From positions 372,001-436,000 of the forward strand of contig JABCZI010000003.1 in the NCBI GenBank assembly GCA_013289765.1: a stretch of 64,000 bases of DNA. The letters are read 5' to 3'. Position numbers and translations under genes: made by a program. The notes beneath the pieces are model-generated. The model saw nothing but the letters and a program-made list of their open reading frames with translations. It was not told the origin of the DNA and ran no database searches. Numbering within the stretch: the first letter of the stretch is position 1; each line of letters opens with the position of its first letter. Positions 55,667 to 64,000 of the stretch are shown one piece after another. Source of the DNA: Acidobacteriota bacterium. GTDB lineage: Bacteria; Acidobacteriota; Terriglobia; Terriglobales; Acidobacteriaceae.

Positions 55667-57322
55667 TTATGACTGCTTCGACTTACGGTAATACCTGATC
55701 AGGTTGTTGGTGGAACTGTCGTGGGCAAGCTGCGGTTCTGTTTCGCTCTCGAGTTCAGGGATGATGCGTTGCGCGAGGACTTTTCCCAGTTCGACGCCCC
55801 ATTGGTCGAATGAATCGATATTCCAGATTGTGCCCTGGGTAAACACGGAGTGTTCGTACAGCGCAACTAGCTTCCCGAGAGTTTCCGGCGTGAGTTTGTC
55901 CGCCAGAATCGTATTCGACGGACGGTTGCCTTCGAACACCCGGTGCGGAATGAGCCACTTCGGAGTGCCTTCCGCCTCGACTTGTGCCGGAGTCTTGCCA
56001 AAGGCCAGCGCTTCAGTCTGTGCGCAAACATTGGCAATCAGCATGTCGTGGTGGTGCCCCAGTGGATTGAGTGGCTTGGAAAAAGCGATGAAGTCGCAGG
56101 GAATGAGTCTCGTCCCTTGGTGAATCAGTTGGTAGAAAGAGTGTTGGCCGTTGGTTCCCGGCTCTCCCCAATAAATCGGACTCGTGTCATGCTTGACTTT
56201 TTTCCCGGCAAGCGTGACATGCTTGCCGTTGCTCTCCATCGTCAGTTGCTGAAGGTAGGCCGGAAAACGTTTCAGGTATTGTTCATAAGGCAAGACGGCG
56301 ACCGTCTGCGACCCGAAGAAATCGTTGTACCAGATCGCCAGAAGACCCATCAGCACCGGCAGATTTTGCTGGAAGGGAGCAGTGCGGAAGTGTTCGTCCA
56401 TCTGATGGAAGCCGTTCAACATCGCGTGAAACTTCTCCGGGCCGATCGCGACCATGGTGGACAGACCAATGGCAGAGTCCATCGAGTAGCGTCCGCCCAC
56501 CCAGTCCCAGAACTCGAACATGTTGGCGGTATCGATCCCGAATTTCGCAACCTCGGACGCATTCGTCGAGACCGCGACAAAATGCTTCGCCACCGACTTT
56601 TCGTCCCCGCCTAGTCCAGCGAGAGACCACTCGCGAGCCGTGTGAGCGTTGGTCATCGTTTCCAGGGTTGTGAAGGTTTTCGAAGAGATGATGAAAAGTG
56701 TTTCCGACGGAACGAGGTCACGGACCGCCTCGGCGAAATCGGTGCCATCAATGTTGGAAATGAAGCGGAACGTGATGGCTCGATCGCTGTAGTGCTTCAG
56801 AGCCTCGTAGGCCATGACCGGACCCAGGTCGGAGCCGCCGATGCCGACGTTAATCACGTTACGAATGCGCTTGCCGGTGTGTCCCTTCCATTCACCGCTT
56901 CGCACGCGGTTGGAAAAATCCGCCATCCGGTCGAGCACCGCATGGACTTCAGGCACCACATTCTTTCCATCGACGACAATGGAAGTGCCTTGCGGCGCAC
57001 GCAGGGCAACGTGCAATACTGCGCGCTTCTCGGTGATGTTGATTTTCTCGCCGTGGAACATGGCATCGATTCGTGCTCTCAGGCCAGACTCTTCCGCCAG
57101 TTGAAGAAGGAGACGCATCGTTTCATCGGTGACGCGGTTCTTGGAGTAATCCAGATAAACACCAACGGCCTCGACAGCCAAACGCTCACCGCGCTCCGGA
57201 TCATCCGCAAAAAGCTGCCGCAGATGCAGCTTTGAAACCGTTTTGTAATGTGACGCCAGTGCGCTCCACGCTGTCTGACTAGTCCTCGGCGGCTTCGTCA
57301 GTGGTTGGACCTGTGCTGCCAT
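55667..57322 (-). CDS. pgi: Glucose-6-phosphate isomerase
   Basis: 551 residues from ATG 57322, which has AGGAG at seven bases. A first ATG two codons upstream is too close to the ribosome site. It interconverts glucose-6-phosphate and fructose-6-phosphate. Family marks are [16 protein letters not shown], the [14 protein letters not shown] strand, [49 protein letters not shown] and [11 protein letters not shown]. It is the first gene of the glycogen-degradation operon, so its promoter should lie in the 57.3-57.8 kb gap. Confidence 0.96.
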
Positions 57323-57812
57323 ATGCATACTCCTTTGGTATTCGCGCGTTTTATTCTCAAGAGCTTCACCCCTTTTGATTTAACTGACTGCCTTCAGGGT
57401 GCTGCTTTTGTTTAGCAAGGCTCTCTTAGAAGAGACCTGGCCACCACGGGAGGTTGCAGGTGAAGTGCCAGACGCGGAAGTGGATTTCGCGCCTGAATTT
57501 CACTTTCCTCAGGCGATGCTACGAAACCATTCGGCAGATTCTGCTCTGTCGCTTGAGGGGAGACCTGCACCACCGGCATTTGGGGCATGCATCCTCAGTG
57601 GTGCACCGCGTGCGGGCTCCCGAGATTTGGCACACTTGACCATGGAAAATAAATACGAACAGTGACAAGATTGACATGGCTCTCCTGTAGGAACTTAGCG
57701 AGTAGGAATTGTAGCGACCAAATTCAAGTTCTGGTATCTAAAGGAGTCATCGGTGCACTGAAGAAGCTTGCGCGCTTGCCTCTCTGCCCGAAGGTTCGAA
57801 ACGAGATCGAGA
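57323..57812. other. Divergent intergenic region without a supported gene
   Basis: About 490 bp between divergent pgi and the receiver/reductase fusion. Several short open frames exist on both strands without ribosome sites. A 7-bp inverted repeat with a 12-base loop (57490-57515) is the only structure noticed. Promoters for both operons are expected here but no convincing -10/-35 pair was seen. Confidence 0.55.
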
Positions 57813-59483
57813 ATGCCTAAACCGATTCTACTGAGCGTAGATGACGACTCCGATGTGCTGCGGGCGATCGAGCGCGATCTGCGTTCGCAGTACGGCGCTG
57901 AATACCGGGTCATAGGAAGCGATTCGCCCGAGGGCGCGCTCGATCTTCTAAAGCAGTTGAAGGTGCGCAATGACAGCGTGGCGCTGCTGCTCGCCGACCA
58001 ACGCATGCCGCGCATGGACGGCGTGGAATTTTTGCAGCAGGCGATGGGAATCTTCCCGGGTGCGAAGCGGGCGCTGCTCACCGCCTACGCCGACACCGAC
58101 GCTGCAATCAGCGCCATCAATCACGCCAGCATCAATTATTTTTTCTTGAAGCCGTGGGACCCTCCCACCGAGCACTTATATCCGCAGTTAGATGATTTGC
58201 TCGATGACTGGCAGGCTTCGTTCCACCCCCCATTTCAGGGGATCAGAGTGCTAGGCACGCGCTGGTCGCCGCGATCCTACGAACTGCGCGACTTCCTGGC
58301 ACGCAACCACGTTCCCTATCAGTGGATCGATGTCGAGTCTTCCGCCAATGATCCGGAGACTAAGCGCCTGCTCGAAGCTTTGGGTCCAGAGGCGGCCAAT
58401 CTTCCGGTGGTTCTCTTCCCGGACGGAACCAAACTTCTTGAAGGTGTACCAGCCGACGTCGCGCAAAAGGTCGGGCTACGGACTCGCGCCCAAACCAGTT
58501 TTTACGACCTGGCCATTGTGGGAGGAGGTCCGGCTGGTTTGGCTGCCGCCGTCTATAGCGCTTCGGAAGGTTTGCACACAGTAATGATTGAGCGGGAAGC
58601 CCCTGGCGGCCAGGCTGGCATGAGCTCACGCATTGAGAACTATCTCGGATTTCCCACCGGGCTCAGTGGTGGCGACCTGGCTCGCCGCGCCGTAGTGCAA
58701 GCGCAGCGTTTTGGAGTGGAGATTCTCGCACCTCAGGAAGCTGTGGGCGTCAGAACGGAAGGGCCTTACCGAATTATCAAACTGGCAGATGGAAATGAAA
58801 TCTCTTGCCATGCCTTGATGATCGCCACAGGCGTCCAGTGGAGGCGACTGGACGCTCTGGGGGTCGACCGGCTGCAGGGTGCCGGGATCTATTATGGTGG
58901 CGGCGCAACCGAGGCGTTATCTTGCAAAGGCGAGATCGTCTATGTGGTGGGCGCCGCGAACTCGGCTGGTCAGGCGGCGATGAACTTCGCGAAGTTTGCC
59001 GAGCGCGTCGTAATTCTCGTGCGCGGCGAATCGCTTTCCAGCACCATGTCACAATACCTGATCGACCAGATTCAAGAGACGCCGAACATTCAGCTCTGGA
59101 CGCATGCCAGCGTGGCCGAGGCGCATGGCGAAACTCGGCTGGAAGAGATTTCCGTACTTTGTTCCGATACCAACAAGATTGAACGCGTGCCGGCGAGTTC
59201 GATGTTTATTTTCATTGGGGCCTTGCCGAGGACCGGTTGGCTGGCGAACATCGTCGAACGGGACGAGCGCGGCTTCCTGTTAACTGGCCCCGATCTCATA
59301 CGTGATGGGCAACGCCCCAAGGGATGGAGCCTTGACCGTGATCCGTTCTTGCTGGAAACGAATGTTGCCGGTATTTTTTCCGTGGGCGATGTGCGGCACG
59401 GTTCGATCAAGCGCGTGGCTTCGGGAGTCGGGGAAGGTTCGGTGGCGGTGCAGTTCATCCATCAATATCTAAGCAAGGTGTAA
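57813..59483 (+). CDS. Fused receiver / glutaredoxin-like / thioredoxin reductase-like protein
   Basis: 556 residues from ATG 57813. A canonical receiver domain (about 3-125) has VDDD, phospho-acceptor Asp62 in LLLADQRMP, LLTAY and Lys113 in FLKPW. A glutaredoxin-like fold (about 145-220; IRVLGTRWSPRSYELRDFLARNHVPY) has no CxxC. The pyridine nucleotide-disulfide reductase part (about 230-556) keeps the FAD motif IVGGGPAGLAAAVYSASEG and an NAD(P) motif VVGAANSAGQAA but lacks the redox-active CxxC found in thioredoxin reductases. It is a phosphorylation-controlled flavoprotein of unknown substrate. The next gene, one base after the stop, is a histidine kinase, its likely partner. Confidence 0.88.
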   Translation: MPKPILLSVDDDSDVLRAIERDLRSQYGAEYRVIGSDSPEGALDLLKQLKVRNDSVALLLADQRMPRMDGVEFLQQAMGIFPGAKRALLTAYADTDAAISAINHASINYFFLKPWDPPTEHLYPQLDDLLDDWQASFHPPFQGIRVLGTRWSPRSYELRDFLARNHVPYQWIDVESSANDPETKRLLEALGPEAANLPVVLFPDGTKLLEGVPADVAQKVGLRTRAQTSFYDLAIVGGGPAGLAAAVYSASEGLHTVMIEREAPGGQAGMSSRIENYLGFPTGLSGGDLARRAVVQAQRFGVEILAPQEAVGVRTEGPYRIIKLADGNEISCHALMIATGVQWRRLDALGVDRLQGAGIYYGGGATEALSCKGEIVYVVGAANSAGQAAMNFAKFAERVVILVRGESLSSTMSQYLIDQIQETPNIQLWTHASVAEAHGETRLEEISVLCSDTNKIERVPASSMFIFIGALPRTGWLANIVERDERGFLLTGPDLIRDGQRPKGWSLDRDPFLLETNVAGIFSVGDVRHGSIKRVASGVGEGSVAVQFIHQYLSKV

Positions 59484-60869
59484 ATGGTCGATAAAACTGA
59501 ATTACGTCGCGTCACTGAATTCGCCGATTTGCCGGATGATCAACTGGATTGGTTTCTCAGTCAGTCGCAAGAGATGCATCTTAAAGCGGGTGAAATGTAC
59601 TCGCGCCAGGGCGACCCAGCCGACGCGATGTTTGTGATTCTTGAGGGGCACCTGCAAGGGCGGGGGGAACTCAATGGCGAAACCGTCGTCTTTGACCTGG
59701 AGCCGGGCGACGTTACCGGGGTCTTGCCATTTTCCAGAATGAAGCAGTTTACCGTGGGCCAGCGTGCCGAGACCGACAGCCGCGCCCTGCGATTTCCCGC
59801 CTCATTATTTCCAGACCTTATACAGAGAATGCCGGAGCTGACCAAGCGTCTGGTGGGCCTTATGTCCGACCGCATCCGGGAAGTCACTCGCCTTGAACAA
59901 CAGCGAGATCGTCTGGCTTCTCTCGGAAAGCTGTCGGCCGGCCTCGCGCACGAACTCAACAATCCTGCGTCCGCCGCGAAACGCGCTGCCAGCCAACTGC
60001 GCGAGATGATCAAGAAAATAAAAAGCGCGAGTCTCGAACTGGGAAAGCGCGATCTTACTCCGGGCCAAAAAACAGAGATCGAAAAACTGGAAGCTTTGTT
60101 CACGCAAAAAGATGTGGTTCCACCTGATGCGCTCACCATCAGCGACCTGGAGGACCAGATCGATTCTCTGCTCCGCAGTCACGGGCAGAACGATCTCTGG
60201 CAATTGGCCGCTGACCTGGCGCGGCGGAATATTAAGCCGGAAATTTTGGAATCATTGTTTGCGAATCTGGATGCAGACGCCGCCAGAGCGGCCTTGGTTC
60301 GAATTGCGGCTTCCGTGGAGGTTGCCGTTCTATTGCACGAAATCGAGAGTAGCACGTCGCGAATATCGGACCTGGTGGGTGCGATCAAGGAATACACCTA
60401 CATGGATCGTGCCAAGGTGCAGAACGTCGATGTCGTAAAGAGTCTGGAGACTACGCTTACGATTTTGAATCACAAACTGAAACAAGGAGTGGCGGTGCAG
60501 CGCGATTACCAGCGCGTTCCGCTGCTGGTAAATTCGTTTGGCAGCGAACTAAACCAGGTCTGGACCAACATTATCGATAACGCGATTGACGCCATGCGCG
60601 GAAAAGGCGACCTTCGCGTCCGTACCTACCGCGACGACGATTGCGTGGTCGTTGAGATTGCGGATAACGGTCCAGGAATTTCTCCCGAGGTGCAGCCTCA
60701 CATCTTTGAGCCGTTTTTCACGACCAAAGGAGTCGGAGAAGGCACCGGCCTCGGCCTGGACACCGTCCAGCGAATTGTGAAGAAGCACCGAGGAAATATT
60801 CAGGTCAATTCCAAACCCGGCGACACGCGTTTTCAAGTCTGGCTGCCTTTAGCGGATGCCACGCGCTAA
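59484..60869 (+). CDS. Histidine kinase with N-terminal CNMP-binding-like domain
   Basis: 461 residues, soluble, no membrane segment. Residues about 5-125 fold as a cyclic-nucleotide-binding jelly roll (GEMYSRQGDPADAMFVILEGHLQGRGEL). The usual phosphate-binding cassette (Gly-Glu...Arg) is not well kept (GVLPFSRMKQFTVGQRAET), so the ligand may differ. The kinase has LASLGKLSAGLAHELNNPASA with His156, a long spacer, NIIDNAIDAMRG, DNGPGIS and GTGLGLDTVQRI. It starts directly after the receiver/reductase stop. It probably phosphorylates that receiver. The signal is unknown. Confidence 0.9.
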   Translation: MVDKTELRRVTEFADLPDDQLDWFLSQSQEMHLKAGEMYSRQGDPADAMFVILEGHLQGRGELNGETVVFDLEPGDVTGVLPFSRMKQFTVGQRAETDSRALRFPASLFPDLIQRMPELTKRLVGLMSDRIREVTRLEQQRDRLASLGKLSAGLAHELNNPASAAKRAASQLREMIKKIKSASLELGKRDLTPGQKTEIEKLEALFTQKDVVPPDALTISDLEDQIDSLLRSHGQNDLWQLAADLARRNIKPEILESLFANLDADAARAALVRIAASVEVAVLLHEIESSTSRISDLVGAIKEYTYMDRAKVQNVDVVKSLETTLTILNHKLKQGVAVQRDYQRVPLLVNSFGSELNQVWTNIIDNAIDAMRGKGDLRVRTYRDDDCVVVEIADNGPGISPEVQPHIFEPFFTTKGVGEGTGLGLDTVQRIVKKHRGNIQVNSKPGDTRFQVWLPLADATR

Positions 60870-60959
60870 TATAGAGTTCGGAAATCGCATGATTGTTTCA
60901 GGCTGATTCGCTGACGATGAAGCCCAACCGTTGTGCAGCCAGCGCGAGGAGTGTGATGG

Positions 60960-61553
60960 ATGTTTGAAAGTATTCTGTGCGAAGTAACCGAATACGATCC
61001 GGGCGTTCTTGAGCCGCTGATTGGGCTCGCTGTCGAAATTGCCCGCGAGGGTCGGGAGGGGAAACGCGTTGGTACTCTGTTCACGCTCGGAGATGAGGCT
61101 GCCGTGCTCGCCAGGTCCCGCCCACTGATTTTGGATCCGTTGATGGGACATCCTGAGTCTTCGCGCCACATCACCAACCTCAATCTCCGCGGAACCATTA
61201 AAGAATTGTCGCAACTGGACGGCGGCTTTGTGGTGAGTCACGACGGAATTGTCCTTTCCGCATGCCGTTATCTTGACGCTGTAGCCGCTCAGGTGGAGGT
61301 CCCACTCGGGCTCGGTAGCCGTCACATTGCCGCCGCCAACATGAGCGCGGTGACCAAGGCCGTGGGCATCGTCGTTTCTGAGAGCTCGGTGGTTCGGCTT
61401 TTTTGTCACGGGCACCTGGTCGGCGAAATTATTCCCGAGCTTTGGATGACGGATCACGCGGCCCACCTTCGCGGTTCGACCAAAAGGGAACAAATAGGCG
61501 AACTGACGGTGCTGACCCCAAACCGCCTGCAGGCTGCCGTAAAGGGAGACTAG
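60960..61553 (+). CDS. DisA_N / diadenylate cyclase-domain protein, degenerate motif
   Basis: 197 residues. The N-terminal IAREGREGKRVGTLFTLGDEAAVLARSRPLILDPLMGHP matches DAC (DisA_N) family proteins, which condense two ATP molecules to c-di-AMP. The first active-site motif is DGG at 87-89 (canonical DGA). The second is RHI at 121-123 (canonical RHR, with Arg in the third position replaced by Ile). The spacing of 34 residues is normal. Activity is thus uncertain. It may be a c-di-AMP or ATP-binding regulator. It lies 90 bp after the CNMP-kinase gene and just before a possible small ORF and a receiver-protease gene. Confidence 0.78.
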   Translation: MFESILCEVTEYDPGVLEPLIGLAVEIAREGREGKRVGTLFTLGDEAAVLARSRPLILDPLMGHPESSRHITNLNLRGTIKELSQLDGGFVVSHDGIVLSACRYLDAVAAQVEVPLGLGSRHIAAANMSAVTKAVGIVVSESSVVRLFCHGHLVGEIIPELWMTDHAAHLRGSTKREQIGELTVLTPNRLQAAVKGD

Positions 61554-61576
61554 AGCTCGATATACGGAAGACATTC

Positions 61577-61864
61577 ATGACAACGCTGGGGGAATTCCGA
61601 TATGAAGTCTGTGGAATCGTGACCAGCAATCCTATCCGCTGGTTCGCGATTCGATGCGGAGATTCCGAGCTGACCGTGCACCTGTGGAATTCTGAAAGCG
61701 CCAATGCCGCCGGAGCCCGCCGTTACAGCGGTGAAGACATGCCGAGGTTTACAGTCAGCCGATGGTTTGACTCAGTGTGCGCGCCGCCGAAGCCCAGTTT
61801 CACCCAGCACCTCAGCTCGGTTGTTTCGCAAGCTCGCGGGTTCCAGGAAGGCCATGAACGATAA
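61577..61864 (+). CDS. Hypothetical protein, 95 residues, overlapping next gene
   Basis: A short open frame from ATG 61577 with a weak GGAAGA upstream. The product (starts MTTLGEFRYEVCGIV) has about six aromatic residues and a basic C-terminus, and no recognised family. Its stop overlaps the start of the receiver-protease gene by 11 bases (shared ATGAACGATAA in two frames), the arrangement expected of translationally coupled genes. That overlap is the main evidence. The coding status is moderately uncertain. Confidence 0.55.
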   Translation: MTTLGEFRYEVCGIVTSNPIRWFAIRCGDSELTVHLWNSESANAAGARRYSGEDMPRFTVSRWFDSVCAPPKPSFTQHLSSVVSQARGFQEGHER

Positions 61865-63527
61865 AGCCGAGAAAGTCTTGGTGGTCGAGTCCGACGACGG
61901 TCTCAGAGAACACATCGTCGCGGTTCTGAGGGATGCGGGATATGGGGTCTCGACCGACAGCCGCGAAGGAATGAAGGCAGTTGTCGCCTTCGACCCCGGC
62001 ATCGTTGTCCTGGGTGCTGATCCACCCCAGCTCGATTGCTGTGACCTTCTCTCTGAGATCAAAGGTTCCGAGCAGACACGCAACATACGGGTTGTGATGC
62101 TATCTCCGGGAGGGTCAGGCGAGCGCACTCGAGGGCTCGATCTCGGGGCCGACGATGTAATTTCCCTACCCTTTGACTCGCACGAATTGCTGTCGCGGGT
62201 GCGCTCGCAACTACGAAATAAATCCATTGCCGACGAGTTTAGCGAGCGGTTGCGCCTTGCCGAGGAAAACCGAAACGGCACCCAGCAGGTGCTAACGGCT
62301 GTCAACCAAGAACGACGCGCGCTCCGAGTTGGCGGCTTGGTGACGGCTGCCGTGCTTATCGTTGCTGCCGTCGTCTTCGTCTTCTTCTATCGTCGAACTC
62401 AGGAACAGAATACCCGAGTCTTCGCAGCGATCACTCGATTGCAAAGTGGTGTCCTGACCCAAGAACAGTTGATAGAGCGTTCGCGTCGGGCCCTGGAAGA
62501 GGCGGAACACCGTCCTTCCCTGGCGAGCGATCCACAGAAACTCCAGCTTCAGAAGAAGAGCGAGGATCTGAGATCGCAAATTGCAAACAGCGACCCGAAA
62601 AACGCTTCTGCTTTGCAAAATCAATTAACCGCAGTAGAGGGCCGCCTTCAGAAACTCGAGACCGAGGGCAAGTTTGCGCAGACAATCATCCAGTCGTACG
62701 AGCCGAGTGTCTGCCTCATTCATGTTGTGCTGGCCTTCCGCGACCACACGACCGGGTTGCGATTGCACTACGCTGGGATGACAGCCAGTGGCGAGCCAAC
62801 GACCGACGAACACAATAACCCACTGGTGGGTGTCACTGGGAACGGTCCGGAGGTACACCTGGATGTTTTTGGCACTGGGTTTCTCGCCTCTGCCAGCGGA
62901 CAAATTCTGACGAACCATCACGTGGCCGAACCCTGGTGGCAGAATAATGATTTGAAGGAAATAGTCGATCAAGGACTTGAGCCAGTGGTTGCCGAGATGA
63001 CTGCGTATTTCCCCGGCGTTCCTCGCGGCATTGCCATCAGTACCGAGAAGATTTCCTCTTCAGCAGACGTTGCGGTTGTGAAAGGGAATGTTTCAGAGCT
63101 CAGAATTAGAAAGATAGCCCTTGCCGATGACCGGGGTTCAACCGTGAGTGGAGGCGCCGTTGTGCTGCTCGGTTATCCCACTGCTCTTGACGGAATTCTG
63201 GCTCGGACGGGGGCAGAGACTCTGCAGTCCATCGCGACTGCATCCAAGGGTGATCCGAAGCAGGTCGTGGAAGAACTCGCCCGCCGCAACCTGATCAGGC
63301 CGATCACTACCCAAGGCCACATCGGCGACGTACTGCCCGACAAGATTGTCTATGATGCCCAAACCACGTCCGGCGGATCAGGCGGTCCTCTTTTCAACAA
63401 CGAGGGGAAAGTTATAGGAATTAATTTTGCAATGGTGCGTGAATTTGGCGGATCGAATTTCGCAATTCCTGTCGGCTATGGAAGGTCACTCTTGAACCTT
63501 GCGGCGACACCTCTGGGAAAACCGTGA
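61854..63527 (+). CDS. Degenerate receiver / TM / coiled coil / trypsin-like protease fusion
   Basis: 557 residues from ATG 61854. Cytoplasmic receiver-like domain about 6-118 is degenerate: the phospho-acceptor position is Gly in IVVLGADPP, the conserved Lys is replaced (SLPFD), and the acidic pair reads ES. A single TM helix at about 158-181 (GGLVTAAVLIVAAVVFVFFYRR), then an extracytoplasmic coiled coil about 185-290 and a trypsin-like serine protease about 300-557 with His356 (TNHHVAEP), Asp405 (SSADVAVV) and Ser509 (GGSGGP). The triad is complete. It appears to be a membrane-tethered protease with a pseudo-receiver, possibly linked to the preceding signalling genes. Confidence 0.87.
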   Translation: MNDKAEKVLVVESDDGLREHIVAVLRDAGYGVSTDSREGMKAVVAFDPGIVVLGADPPQLDCCDLLSEIKGSEQTRNIRVVMLSPGGSGERTRGLDLGADDVISLPFDSHELLSRVRSQLRNKSIADEFSERLRLAEENRNGTQQVLTAVNQERRALRVGGLVTAAVLIVAAVVFVFFYRRTQEQNTRVFAAITRLQSGVLTQEQLIERSRRALEEAEHRPSLASDPQKLQLQKKSEDLRSQIANSDPKNASALQNQLTAVEGRLQKLETEGKFAQTIIQSYEPSVCLIHVVLAFRDHTTGLRLHYAGMTASGEPTTDEHNNPLVGVTGNGPEVHLDVFGTGFLASASGQILTNHHVAEPWWQNNDLKEIVDQGLEPVVAEMTAYFPGVPRGIAISTEKISSSADVAVVKGNVSELRIRKIALADDRGSTVSGGAVVLLGYPTALDGILARTGAETLQSIATASKGDPKQVVEELARRNLIRPITTQGHIGDVLPDKIVYDAQTTSGGSGGPLFNNEGKVIGINFAMVREFGGSNFAIPVGYGRSLLNLAATPLGKP

Positions 63528-63619
63528 AGCTTGCTAGTTCTCACGATCACCTCGAGGTCCAGGTTGACGACACGGTACAGCAGGTAATGACGGCTTCGAC
63601 CCTGGACTGTCGTTGACAC

Positions 63620-63629
63620 TGTCTAGACA
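63620..63629. promoter_or_regulatory. Palindrome TGTCTAGACA (HutC-type match)
   Basis: A 10-bp palindrome lies 137 bp before the ATG of the right-edge gene. Its GTCTAGAC centre fits the published GT-N-TA-N-AC pattern of HutC-type GntR regulators. TTGACA lies at 63613-63618, but no convincing -10 is seen. Candidate operator only. The rest of the 63528-63765 gap shows nothing else. Confidence 0.35.
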
Positions 63630-63765
63630 ATTTCGACACTTCAACACCAGCCGCGAGTCATCTCTCCAAAAAGACCTCTACATTTCAGCCAGTTAGAAGC
63701 AGAACCTTTCTTGATGCCCCTGGCATACTAGTTGCCCTTTGCTGAGTTGGAGAGGCGTCACAAGC

Positions 63766-64000
63766 ATGACTCCCCAAGTCATTCAGGCCGCAGACAGGAA
63801 CCTCCAAACCAGACGCAAGCATCGCATTGAGTTTTTCCGTCGATCACTCACTCTAGTACCAGGAGATCGAGACGGTCGATATAGGTTCGTGAATCGAGTA
63901 TTGGTCCTATCCGCCGCGATTTTCATTGGAATGTTCCTCATCACATCTGCGTCCGCACAAGAACAGCGGCATGCCCATAGCGAATACACGTATTGGTTCG
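63766..64000 (+). CDS. Secreted protein, unknown, 3' end cut by window
   Basis: An open frame without a stop to the right edge. From ATG 63766 there is a 40-residue basic leader, then LVLSAAIFIGMFLITSASAQE, a clear signal peptide with AxA cleavage, followed by QRHAHSEYTYWF. GGAGAGG lies about 10 bases before the ATG. An in-frame GTG at 63889 directly before the signal peptide would give a normal signal-peptide length and may be the true start. The mature part is too short to name. Confidence 0.6.
   Translation, partial: MTPQVIQAADRNLQTRRKHRIEFFRRSLTLVPGDRDGRYRFVNRVLVLSAAIFIGMFLITSASAQEQRHAHSEYTYWF

Follow-up and report, generated by a model that had tools for sequence, protein, structure and literature searches.

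The 64,000-nucleotide window analyzed here (positions 372,001 to 436,000 of contig JABCZI010000003.1, assembly GCA_013289765.1, from a member of the Acidobacteriaceae, Acidobacteriota) carries, by open reading frame (ORF) reading of its sequence, five consecutive genes at 57813-63527, designated A to E (Table 1). Genes A, B and C encode a receiver-flavoprotein fusion, a histidine kinase and a stand-alone diadenylate cyclase (DAC) domain protein, and their recurrence together in two distant phyla suggests an undescribed signaling module. A preliminary description of this DNA had reported five tightly spaced, co-directional genes, and ORF coordinates and a domain scan bear this out: A and B abut, the B start being the base after the A stop; gaps of 90 bp and 23 bp separate B from C and C from D; and D and E overlap by 11 bp. 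All gene maps derive from our own ORF calls and not from the deposited annotation.

Table 1. Features of the locus and its 3′ flank. Positions are those of the window except in the last row, where G000 is the window genome and L018 the window's own locus.
Feature	Position	Strand	Description
Gene A	57813..59483	+	Receiver, Cys-less thioredoxin-like middle, thioredoxin reductase-like FAD/NAD(P) domain without CxxC
Gene B	59484..60869	+	Histidine kinase, soluble; cNMP-like domain at the N terminus, His156 in the H-box, HATPase_c
Gene C	60960..61553	+	Stand-alone DAC domain protein, 197 aa; DacZ-like DAC without PK_C-like N-terminal domain
Gene D	61577..61864	+	Decayed copy of a small, Cys-rich protein of 76 aa; runs into E
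Gene E	61854..63527	+	Degenerate receiver, one predicted membrane helix, trypsin-like protease
PagL-like (lipid A deacylase family) gene start	63739..64000	+	Same strand as E
Resistance-nodulation-division (RND) efflux operon (membrane fusion protein, pump, outer-membrane factor)	G000:C3:437190-442964 (L018 11740-18965)	+	Past the window end

Gene A encodes 556 residues that match Pfam Response_reg and Pyr_redox_2 (110 bits); the Pfam scan returned no DNA-binding domain. FAD/NAD(P) domains of the thioredoxin reductase type are present, and thioredoxin reductases are the best solved-structure matches; against the thioredoxin reductase model TIGR01292 the protein scores 191 bits, below the cut-off of 343. 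The phospho-acceptor Asp62 and Lys113 of the receiver are conserved in 16 of 16 A ORFs, a set that includes the window's own (L018) and counts one locus twice (L019/L102). None of these 16 unbroken ORFs, from Acidobacteriota and Rubrobacteraceae, has a CxxC motif at the catalytic place of thioredoxin reductases or in the thioredoxin-like part; A genes split in genome bins (L083, L101, L123, L143 and L150) were left out of the check. The catalytic place reads GGGAT in the window and GAA.T in Rubrobacter, and two solved enzymes aligned to A have C there. Because the reductase-like domain lacks the catalytic CxxC, classical thioredoxin reduction by A is unlikely. The receiver/glutaredoxin-like/reductase fusion reported earlier is upheld as a fusion by the domain scan, with the correction that both of its redox parts lack CxxC; the "redox" label is uncertain for this reason.

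Gene B encodes a soluble protein of 461 residues with Pfam matches to cNMP_binding and HATPase_c (96 bits) and a weak match to HisKA, below cut-off. His156 lies in the H-box, and LAH(E/Q)LNNPA is found in 29 of 29 B ORFs (the window's own included, with three loci entered twice: L019/L102, L026/L092 and L029/L100). The domain scan and the H-box thus agree with the soluble CNMP-domain histidine kinase of the preliminary description, which had also named His156 of the kinase and Asp62 of the receiver correctly. When B is aligned with CRP, its phosphate cassette reads GVLP.FSRMKQFT where CRP has GELGLFEEGQERS, and the Glu and Arg of the cassette, which we take to be the usual cAMP contacts, are absent; the B pattern is alike across Acidobacteriota rows and variable across Rubrobacter rows. 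In a sample of 37 genomes of the window's genus, B adjoins A in 15 of the 16 that carry A, the sixteenth being interrupted by contig ends. Given this fixed adjacency and the intact phospho-sites, B and A look, by sequence, like a kinase-regulator pair.

Gene C scores 58.4 bits with the Pfam DAC family (PF02457), whose cut-off is 27. Its best curated match is the archaeal DacZ family of NCBIfam (NF041371), where it scores 121 bits, far short of the cut-off of 430, and covers only model positions 122-268 of 270. A structure model (pLDDT 70, pTM 0.74, from an alignment of 7 sequences) was compared with solved structures. Rows 1-40 are all DAC structures, with Z scores of 8.8-11.6, and the next row has Z 4.0; row 1 is a B. 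cereus entry that also matches the DAC profile. Motifs were read in 81 C-family sequences, comprising the window's own and those of 80 named loci described below. The DG of the DGA motif is present in 79, the other 2 having gaps, and its third residue is A in 57 and G in 22. RH is present in 80 of 81, and the third residue of RHR, which we take to be a DAC-family motif, is M, I, L, V or F in 80 (the other is an X). Because the DAC match, the DAC fold and the DG and RH motifs are all kept, C is probably a working cyclase.

It is distinctly unlikely that C is instead a DAC-derived sensor that binds nucleotides but is not a working cyclase. The hydrophobic third residue of RHR, the Gly in place of Ala in 22 of 79 DGA motifs, the loss from one relative (G249) of a middle stretch with RH, and the presence in the window genome of a canonical CdaA (G000:C12, motif GTRHR) would all fit such a sensor, yet Asp-Gly and Arg-His are invariant wherever they can be read, and the DacZ of Haladaptatus likewise has RH followed by a residue other than Arg. 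The nearest family is, moreover, DacZ, whose Haloferax member synthesizes cyclic di-AMP (c-di-AMP) in vitro, according to PMC6741144. Two further candidates were set aside: an archaeal-type DacZ is ruled out by the missing N-terminal domain, and a housekeeping role is unlikely because CdaA is encoded in the same genome and C occurs in 12 of the 37 genus genomes.

Relatives of C form a family of stand-alone DACs of ~190 residues in Acidobacteriota, Actinomycetota (Rubrobacteraceae), Thermodesulfobacteriota and others. A scan of a one-genome-per-species collection (84,980 species) gave 147 relatives, of which the best 80 (L083-L162) were examined; the nearest named ones belong to "Candidatus Sulfotelmatobacter" and to further Acidobacteriota bins. 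None of the 80 loci comes from the window's own contig, and the set overlaps the genus set L018-L030 (for example, L084 = L020, L092 = L026, L100 = L029 and L102 = L019). An 83-row tree places the Actinomycetota in one clade (97/88), with 2 changes for Acidobacteriota and 6 for Thermodesulfobacteriota. Among 396 Acidobacteriota genomes, C matches above 100 bits in 5: the window genome, G135, G145, G249 and G213, the last with a DacZ-like protein that has an N-terminal extension. A further 45 match at less than 35 bits; these are probably ordinary DAC proteins and were left out of the C counts. Plasmid carriage was rejected, as tblastn of C against 72,556 plasmid records returned two haloarchaeal DacZ only. 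By eye, two acidobacterial genomes (G392 and G426; L038 and L039) have ORFs of ~1,000 residues in which a region resembling an AMP-binding enzyme precedes what appear to be two stretches of DAC type, of which one has DGA and ARH.

Across the 80 named loci, B (searched with two query sequences) lies within 10 kb of C in 16 and within 1 kb in 14. A-type sequences are near C in 12, some only as fragments (e.g., L123, L143 and L150); L146 was left out of this count, its match being a ~30% thioredoxin reductase-like protein only. Outside the genus, the most recurrent partners are a UBP zinc finger and an efflux pump, of the RND type in diderms and of the EmrB/QacA major facilitator superfamily (MFS) type in Rubrobacter. 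UBP zinc fingers are near C in 12 loci and RND pumps in 10, and MFS genes lie within 1 kb of C in 12, all of them in Actinomycetota; the MFS gene of L127, the only one tested, exceeds the EmrB cut-off. Pumps were labeled from BLAST clusters of at least 2 loci, so that singly occurring pumps are missed, and four permeases were confirmed by Pfam/NCBIfam (L018, L127, L156 and L161). RND genes are denser beside C: within 1 kb of it there are 3.3 per 100 kb, compared with 0.4 at 4-10 kb. Overall, 32 of the 80 loci have a module gene or a pump (L146 only through its ~30% match), and 14 have both.

The order of these genes varies. A-B-C is found in the window, in L083 and L102 (Acidobacteriota near the window's genus) and, with one to three B genes, in Rubrobacteraceae (L123, L127, L129 and L130). 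L130, the complete genome of Rubrobacter marinus, reads A-B-B-C-DUF924-MFS followed by a UBP gene, and L104 reads A-B-UBP-C followed by an RND operon. The order is C-A-B in L101; A-B is divergent from C in L103; and UBP-B-A is convergent with C in L105. The arrangement in L092 is also convergent. RND-UBP-C occurs in L097 and L106, and RND immediately before C in L096 and in the Syntrophobacteraceae L156 and L161. In L111 (= L034 = L063, genome G135) a single ORF, located after an RND operon, joins the UBP finger to the DAC domain and is over the Pfam cut-off for both. Since gene orders differ between lineages, the adjacency of A, B and C is not simply inherited, and their variety argues that the genes were assembled together more than once. 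The clustering is beyond chance, as other lineages have A, B and C together again; chance was also excluded on the grounds that A has one or a few copies per genome and the pairing recurs. The neighborhood survey suggested earlier as a check on this locus has thus found kinase, receiver-flavoprotein and cyclase together, in several orders, in both Acidobacteriota and Rubrobacteraceae.

Other neighbors of C were seen in passing. Different pyridine-nucleotide flavoproteins lie beside C in other phyla (L115, L144, L146, L151, L153, L159 and L162; 4 of 7 checked with Pfam). By eye, Hsp20-like small heat-shock genes are near C in L117, L119, L125, L128, L146 and L158, and GroEL-like genes are upstream of it in L119 and L125. 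Dadabacteria-type loci (L138, L144, L145, L148 and L159) share a neighborhood in which, also by eye, C is followed by a metallophosphatase-like gene.

Within the genus sample, A orthologues (at least 84% identity) are present in 16 genomes, B in 18, C in 12, D in 11 and E in 7; the D count leaves out one weaker partial match in one further genome. C was found outside the genus in 0 of the 24 other genomes of that sample. By Fisher tests, made without correction for relatedness, B accompanies C (11 of 12 genomes with C versus 7 of 25 without, p = 0.0003), as does A (9 of 12 versus 7 of 25, p = 0.009). Genomes with C are also somewhat larger, with a mean of 5.7 versus 5.0 Mb. Taken with the recurrence in distant lineages, a functional link among A, B and C is highly probable.

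Genes D and E are genus-level additions to the module, and D is decaying in the window genome. Relative to its homologues, the window copy of D has lost two Cys residues and its stop codon and carries a one-base deletion and a nearby one-base insertion that amount to compensating frameshifts; D overlaps E because the stop is lost. The small overlapping ORF of the preliminary description therefore exists, overlap included, but it is a decayed copy of the Cys-rich protein listed in Table 1. No Pfam domain was matched by D, and neither Pfam nor NCBIfam by the family member at L020; the predicted D structure has a pLDDT of 52. An intact copy lies elsewhere in the window genome (G000:C8:65668-65895, L074), at the 3′ end of another RND operon. 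With this copy decayed and an intact one elsewhere, D is ruled out as the fifth conserved member of the locus. The D-after-RND arrangement of L074 was seen again in L075. D-like genes lie within 1 kb of C in 11 of the 80 named loci, two of them weak or partial, and C adjoins D in 8 of 13 genus loci.

Gene E matches Pfam Response_reg and Trypsin_2. Read by eye, its receiver has Gly54 at the phospho-acceptor position and Leu105 at the conserved Lys position, and the protease has His356, Asp405 and Ser509 as catalytic residues. One hydrophobic stretch, from about residue 159, was read as a membrane helix. No PDZ domain was matched at an E value of 0.01, and the protease domain stops 34 residues before the C terminus. 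The membrane protease with a degenerate receiver predicted earlier is borne out, with both the Asp and the Lys positions lost.

It had further been proposed that redox or nucleotide sensing is passed to E as an extracytoplasmic protease, which now appears very improbable. E is co-directional with the other genes and overlaps D, lies beside C in 3 of 13 genus loci, and is co-present with C in 5 of 12 genus genomes versus 2 of 25 without C (p = 0.025). Against this, E is near C in only 2 of the 80 named loci (L086 and L095), both of them genus loci already counted; its position relative to C varies, being upstream in G017, downstream in the window and convergent in G012; its receiver lacks Asp and Lys; and E-type proteins occur without C in G005 and G018. 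A signal to the protease is unsupported because D is decayed and E is linked to C within the genus only, and the latter also rules out the protease as a general output.

On the strand of E, the window genome continues with a PagL-like gene followed by an RND operon, and the cluster may extend past the window end to include both. A scan of 57300-64000 gave 1 promoter-like site versus 2.5 in shuffled sequence, and 11 terminator-like sites versus 6.3 (sd 2.9), all within genes. Near full-length RND pumps number 14 in the 4.8 Mb of the window genome.

The explanation that we favor, with moderate confidence, is that A, B and C form a mobile, repeatedly assembled two-component module that responds to stress and is coupled to efflux and to the local synthesis of c-di-AMP. 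The cNMP-like domain of B would sense a ligand, and B would autophosphorylate at His156 and pass the phosphate to Asp62 of A. Phosphorylation would alter the NAD(P)H/FAD unit of A, which, having no CxxC for thioredoxin reduction, might reduce another acceptor or report the NAD(P)H state. C, placed under the same control as A and B, would supply c-di-AMP locally, and this would tune the neighboring efflux pump and envelope functions under xenobiotic or redox stress; in other genomes a UBP-type zinc finger and a multidrug efflux pump would be further parts of the module. This direction of signal flow, from B to A and from C to the pump, is offered tentatively, as a possibility drawn from domain content and gene order.

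Several observations weigh against such a coupled module. Neither module genes nor a pump were found, within the flanking sequence available, in 48 of the 80 named C loci (49 without L146); many of these contigs are short, and many of the loci belong to other phyla, where C has different neighbors. Within the genus, only 4 of the 13 C loci have B next to C, and D accompanies C (10 of 12 genomes with C versus 1 of 25 without, p = 2e-6) more tightly than B does. Among the 396 Acidobacteriota genomes, A was found in 50 (E value 1e-130), and only two of these, the window genome and G135, also have C above 100 bits, in G135 on a separate contig; as so few of these genomes have a strong C match, A must also work without C. 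The C family has RH and a hydrophobic residue in place of the full RHR motif. As to efflux, what ties it to the module is gene adjacency, which in the MFS case is confined to one lineage, the Actinomycetota, and may reflect plain inheritance; in R. marinus the deposited sequence breaks the MFS gene (L130 11164-13544) across two frames, through either a real loss or a sequencing error.

Some of these points would also suit an arrangement in which A and B, with the UBP zinc finger, make up a complete redox or xenobiotic two-component unit and C is an independent c-di-AMP synthase that resides in the same gene-rich islands. A and B do occur without C in many genomes, as the phylum counts and the near-constant pairing of B with A in the genus indicate, and elsewhere C adjoins D, RND pumps, chaperones or other flavoproteins. 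Adjacency to C, however, recurs in different orders in two phyla and drops sharply with distance from C, and the zinc finger, which adjoins A-B in 3 of 7 mapped genus loci (L070, L077 and L081), is fused to the DAC domain in G135. We therefore regard an independent C as somewhat doubtful.

A stronger version of the coupled module can also be framed, in which A and B control C, c-di-AMP is exported by an RND or DHA2-type MFS pump or else gates that pump, and the UBP protein is an adaptor between the kinase pair and the cyclase, the whole being a dedicated signaling-and-export system. This is unlikely; if true, soil bacteria would gain a regulated extracellular c-di-AMP signal.

We know of no case in which a two-component kinase and a flavoprotein regulator are wired to c-di-AMP synthesis, or in which such synthesis is encoded beside an efflux pump. 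No description of the gene set was found in the open-access PMC literature searched, although stand-alone or UBP-fused DACs may be catalogued elsewhere. The module is a concrete gene set, present also in a cultured organism with a complete genome, R. marinus, and it allows the role of a stand-alone diadenylate cyclase to be asked about, in the window genome on top of CdaA. It also raises the questions of what substitutes for thioredoxin with CxxC-less, thioredoxin reductase-like regulators and what the targets of bacterial UBP zinc fingers are.

Each part of the locus has counterparts among known systems. Pairs of a receiver-thioredoxin reductase fusion and a cNMP histidine kinase are, we believe, known from annotation, and A and B belong to exactly such a pair; the window locus differs in its added DAC gene. 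E shares with HtrA/DegP the trypsin-like domain, the His-Asp-Ser residues and GGSGG, and differs in its N-terminal degenerate receiver and membrane helix and in having no room for a PDZ domain. C has the DAC fold in common with CdaA (DacA), which is membrane-anchored and in this genome carries GTRHR, whereas C is soluble and reads GSRHI. In Listeria and Bacillus, as far as we are aware, the c-di-AMP synthase and pump are not in one gene cluster. The pump in diderm C loci differs from theirs in being of the RND type, and the association here is known from gene adjacency alone. Closest to C are the archaeal DacZ/CdaZ proteins, whose DAC-domain motifs are common to C and to the Haladaptatus relative; C differs in being bacterial and in its two-component and efflux context. 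In PMC6741144, the DacZ and CdaZ proteins share a PK_C-like N-terminal domain, which C lacks, and the DacZ branch also takes in some bacterial proteins. Finally, MFS multidrug pumps export c-di-AMP in Listeria (MdrM/MdrT) and Bacillus (YcnB/YhcA), as reported in PMC5874923, which makes the MFS and RND neighbors of C of interest as targets or exporters; in Rubrobacter-type loci a DHA2-type MFS gene lies one or two genes after C.

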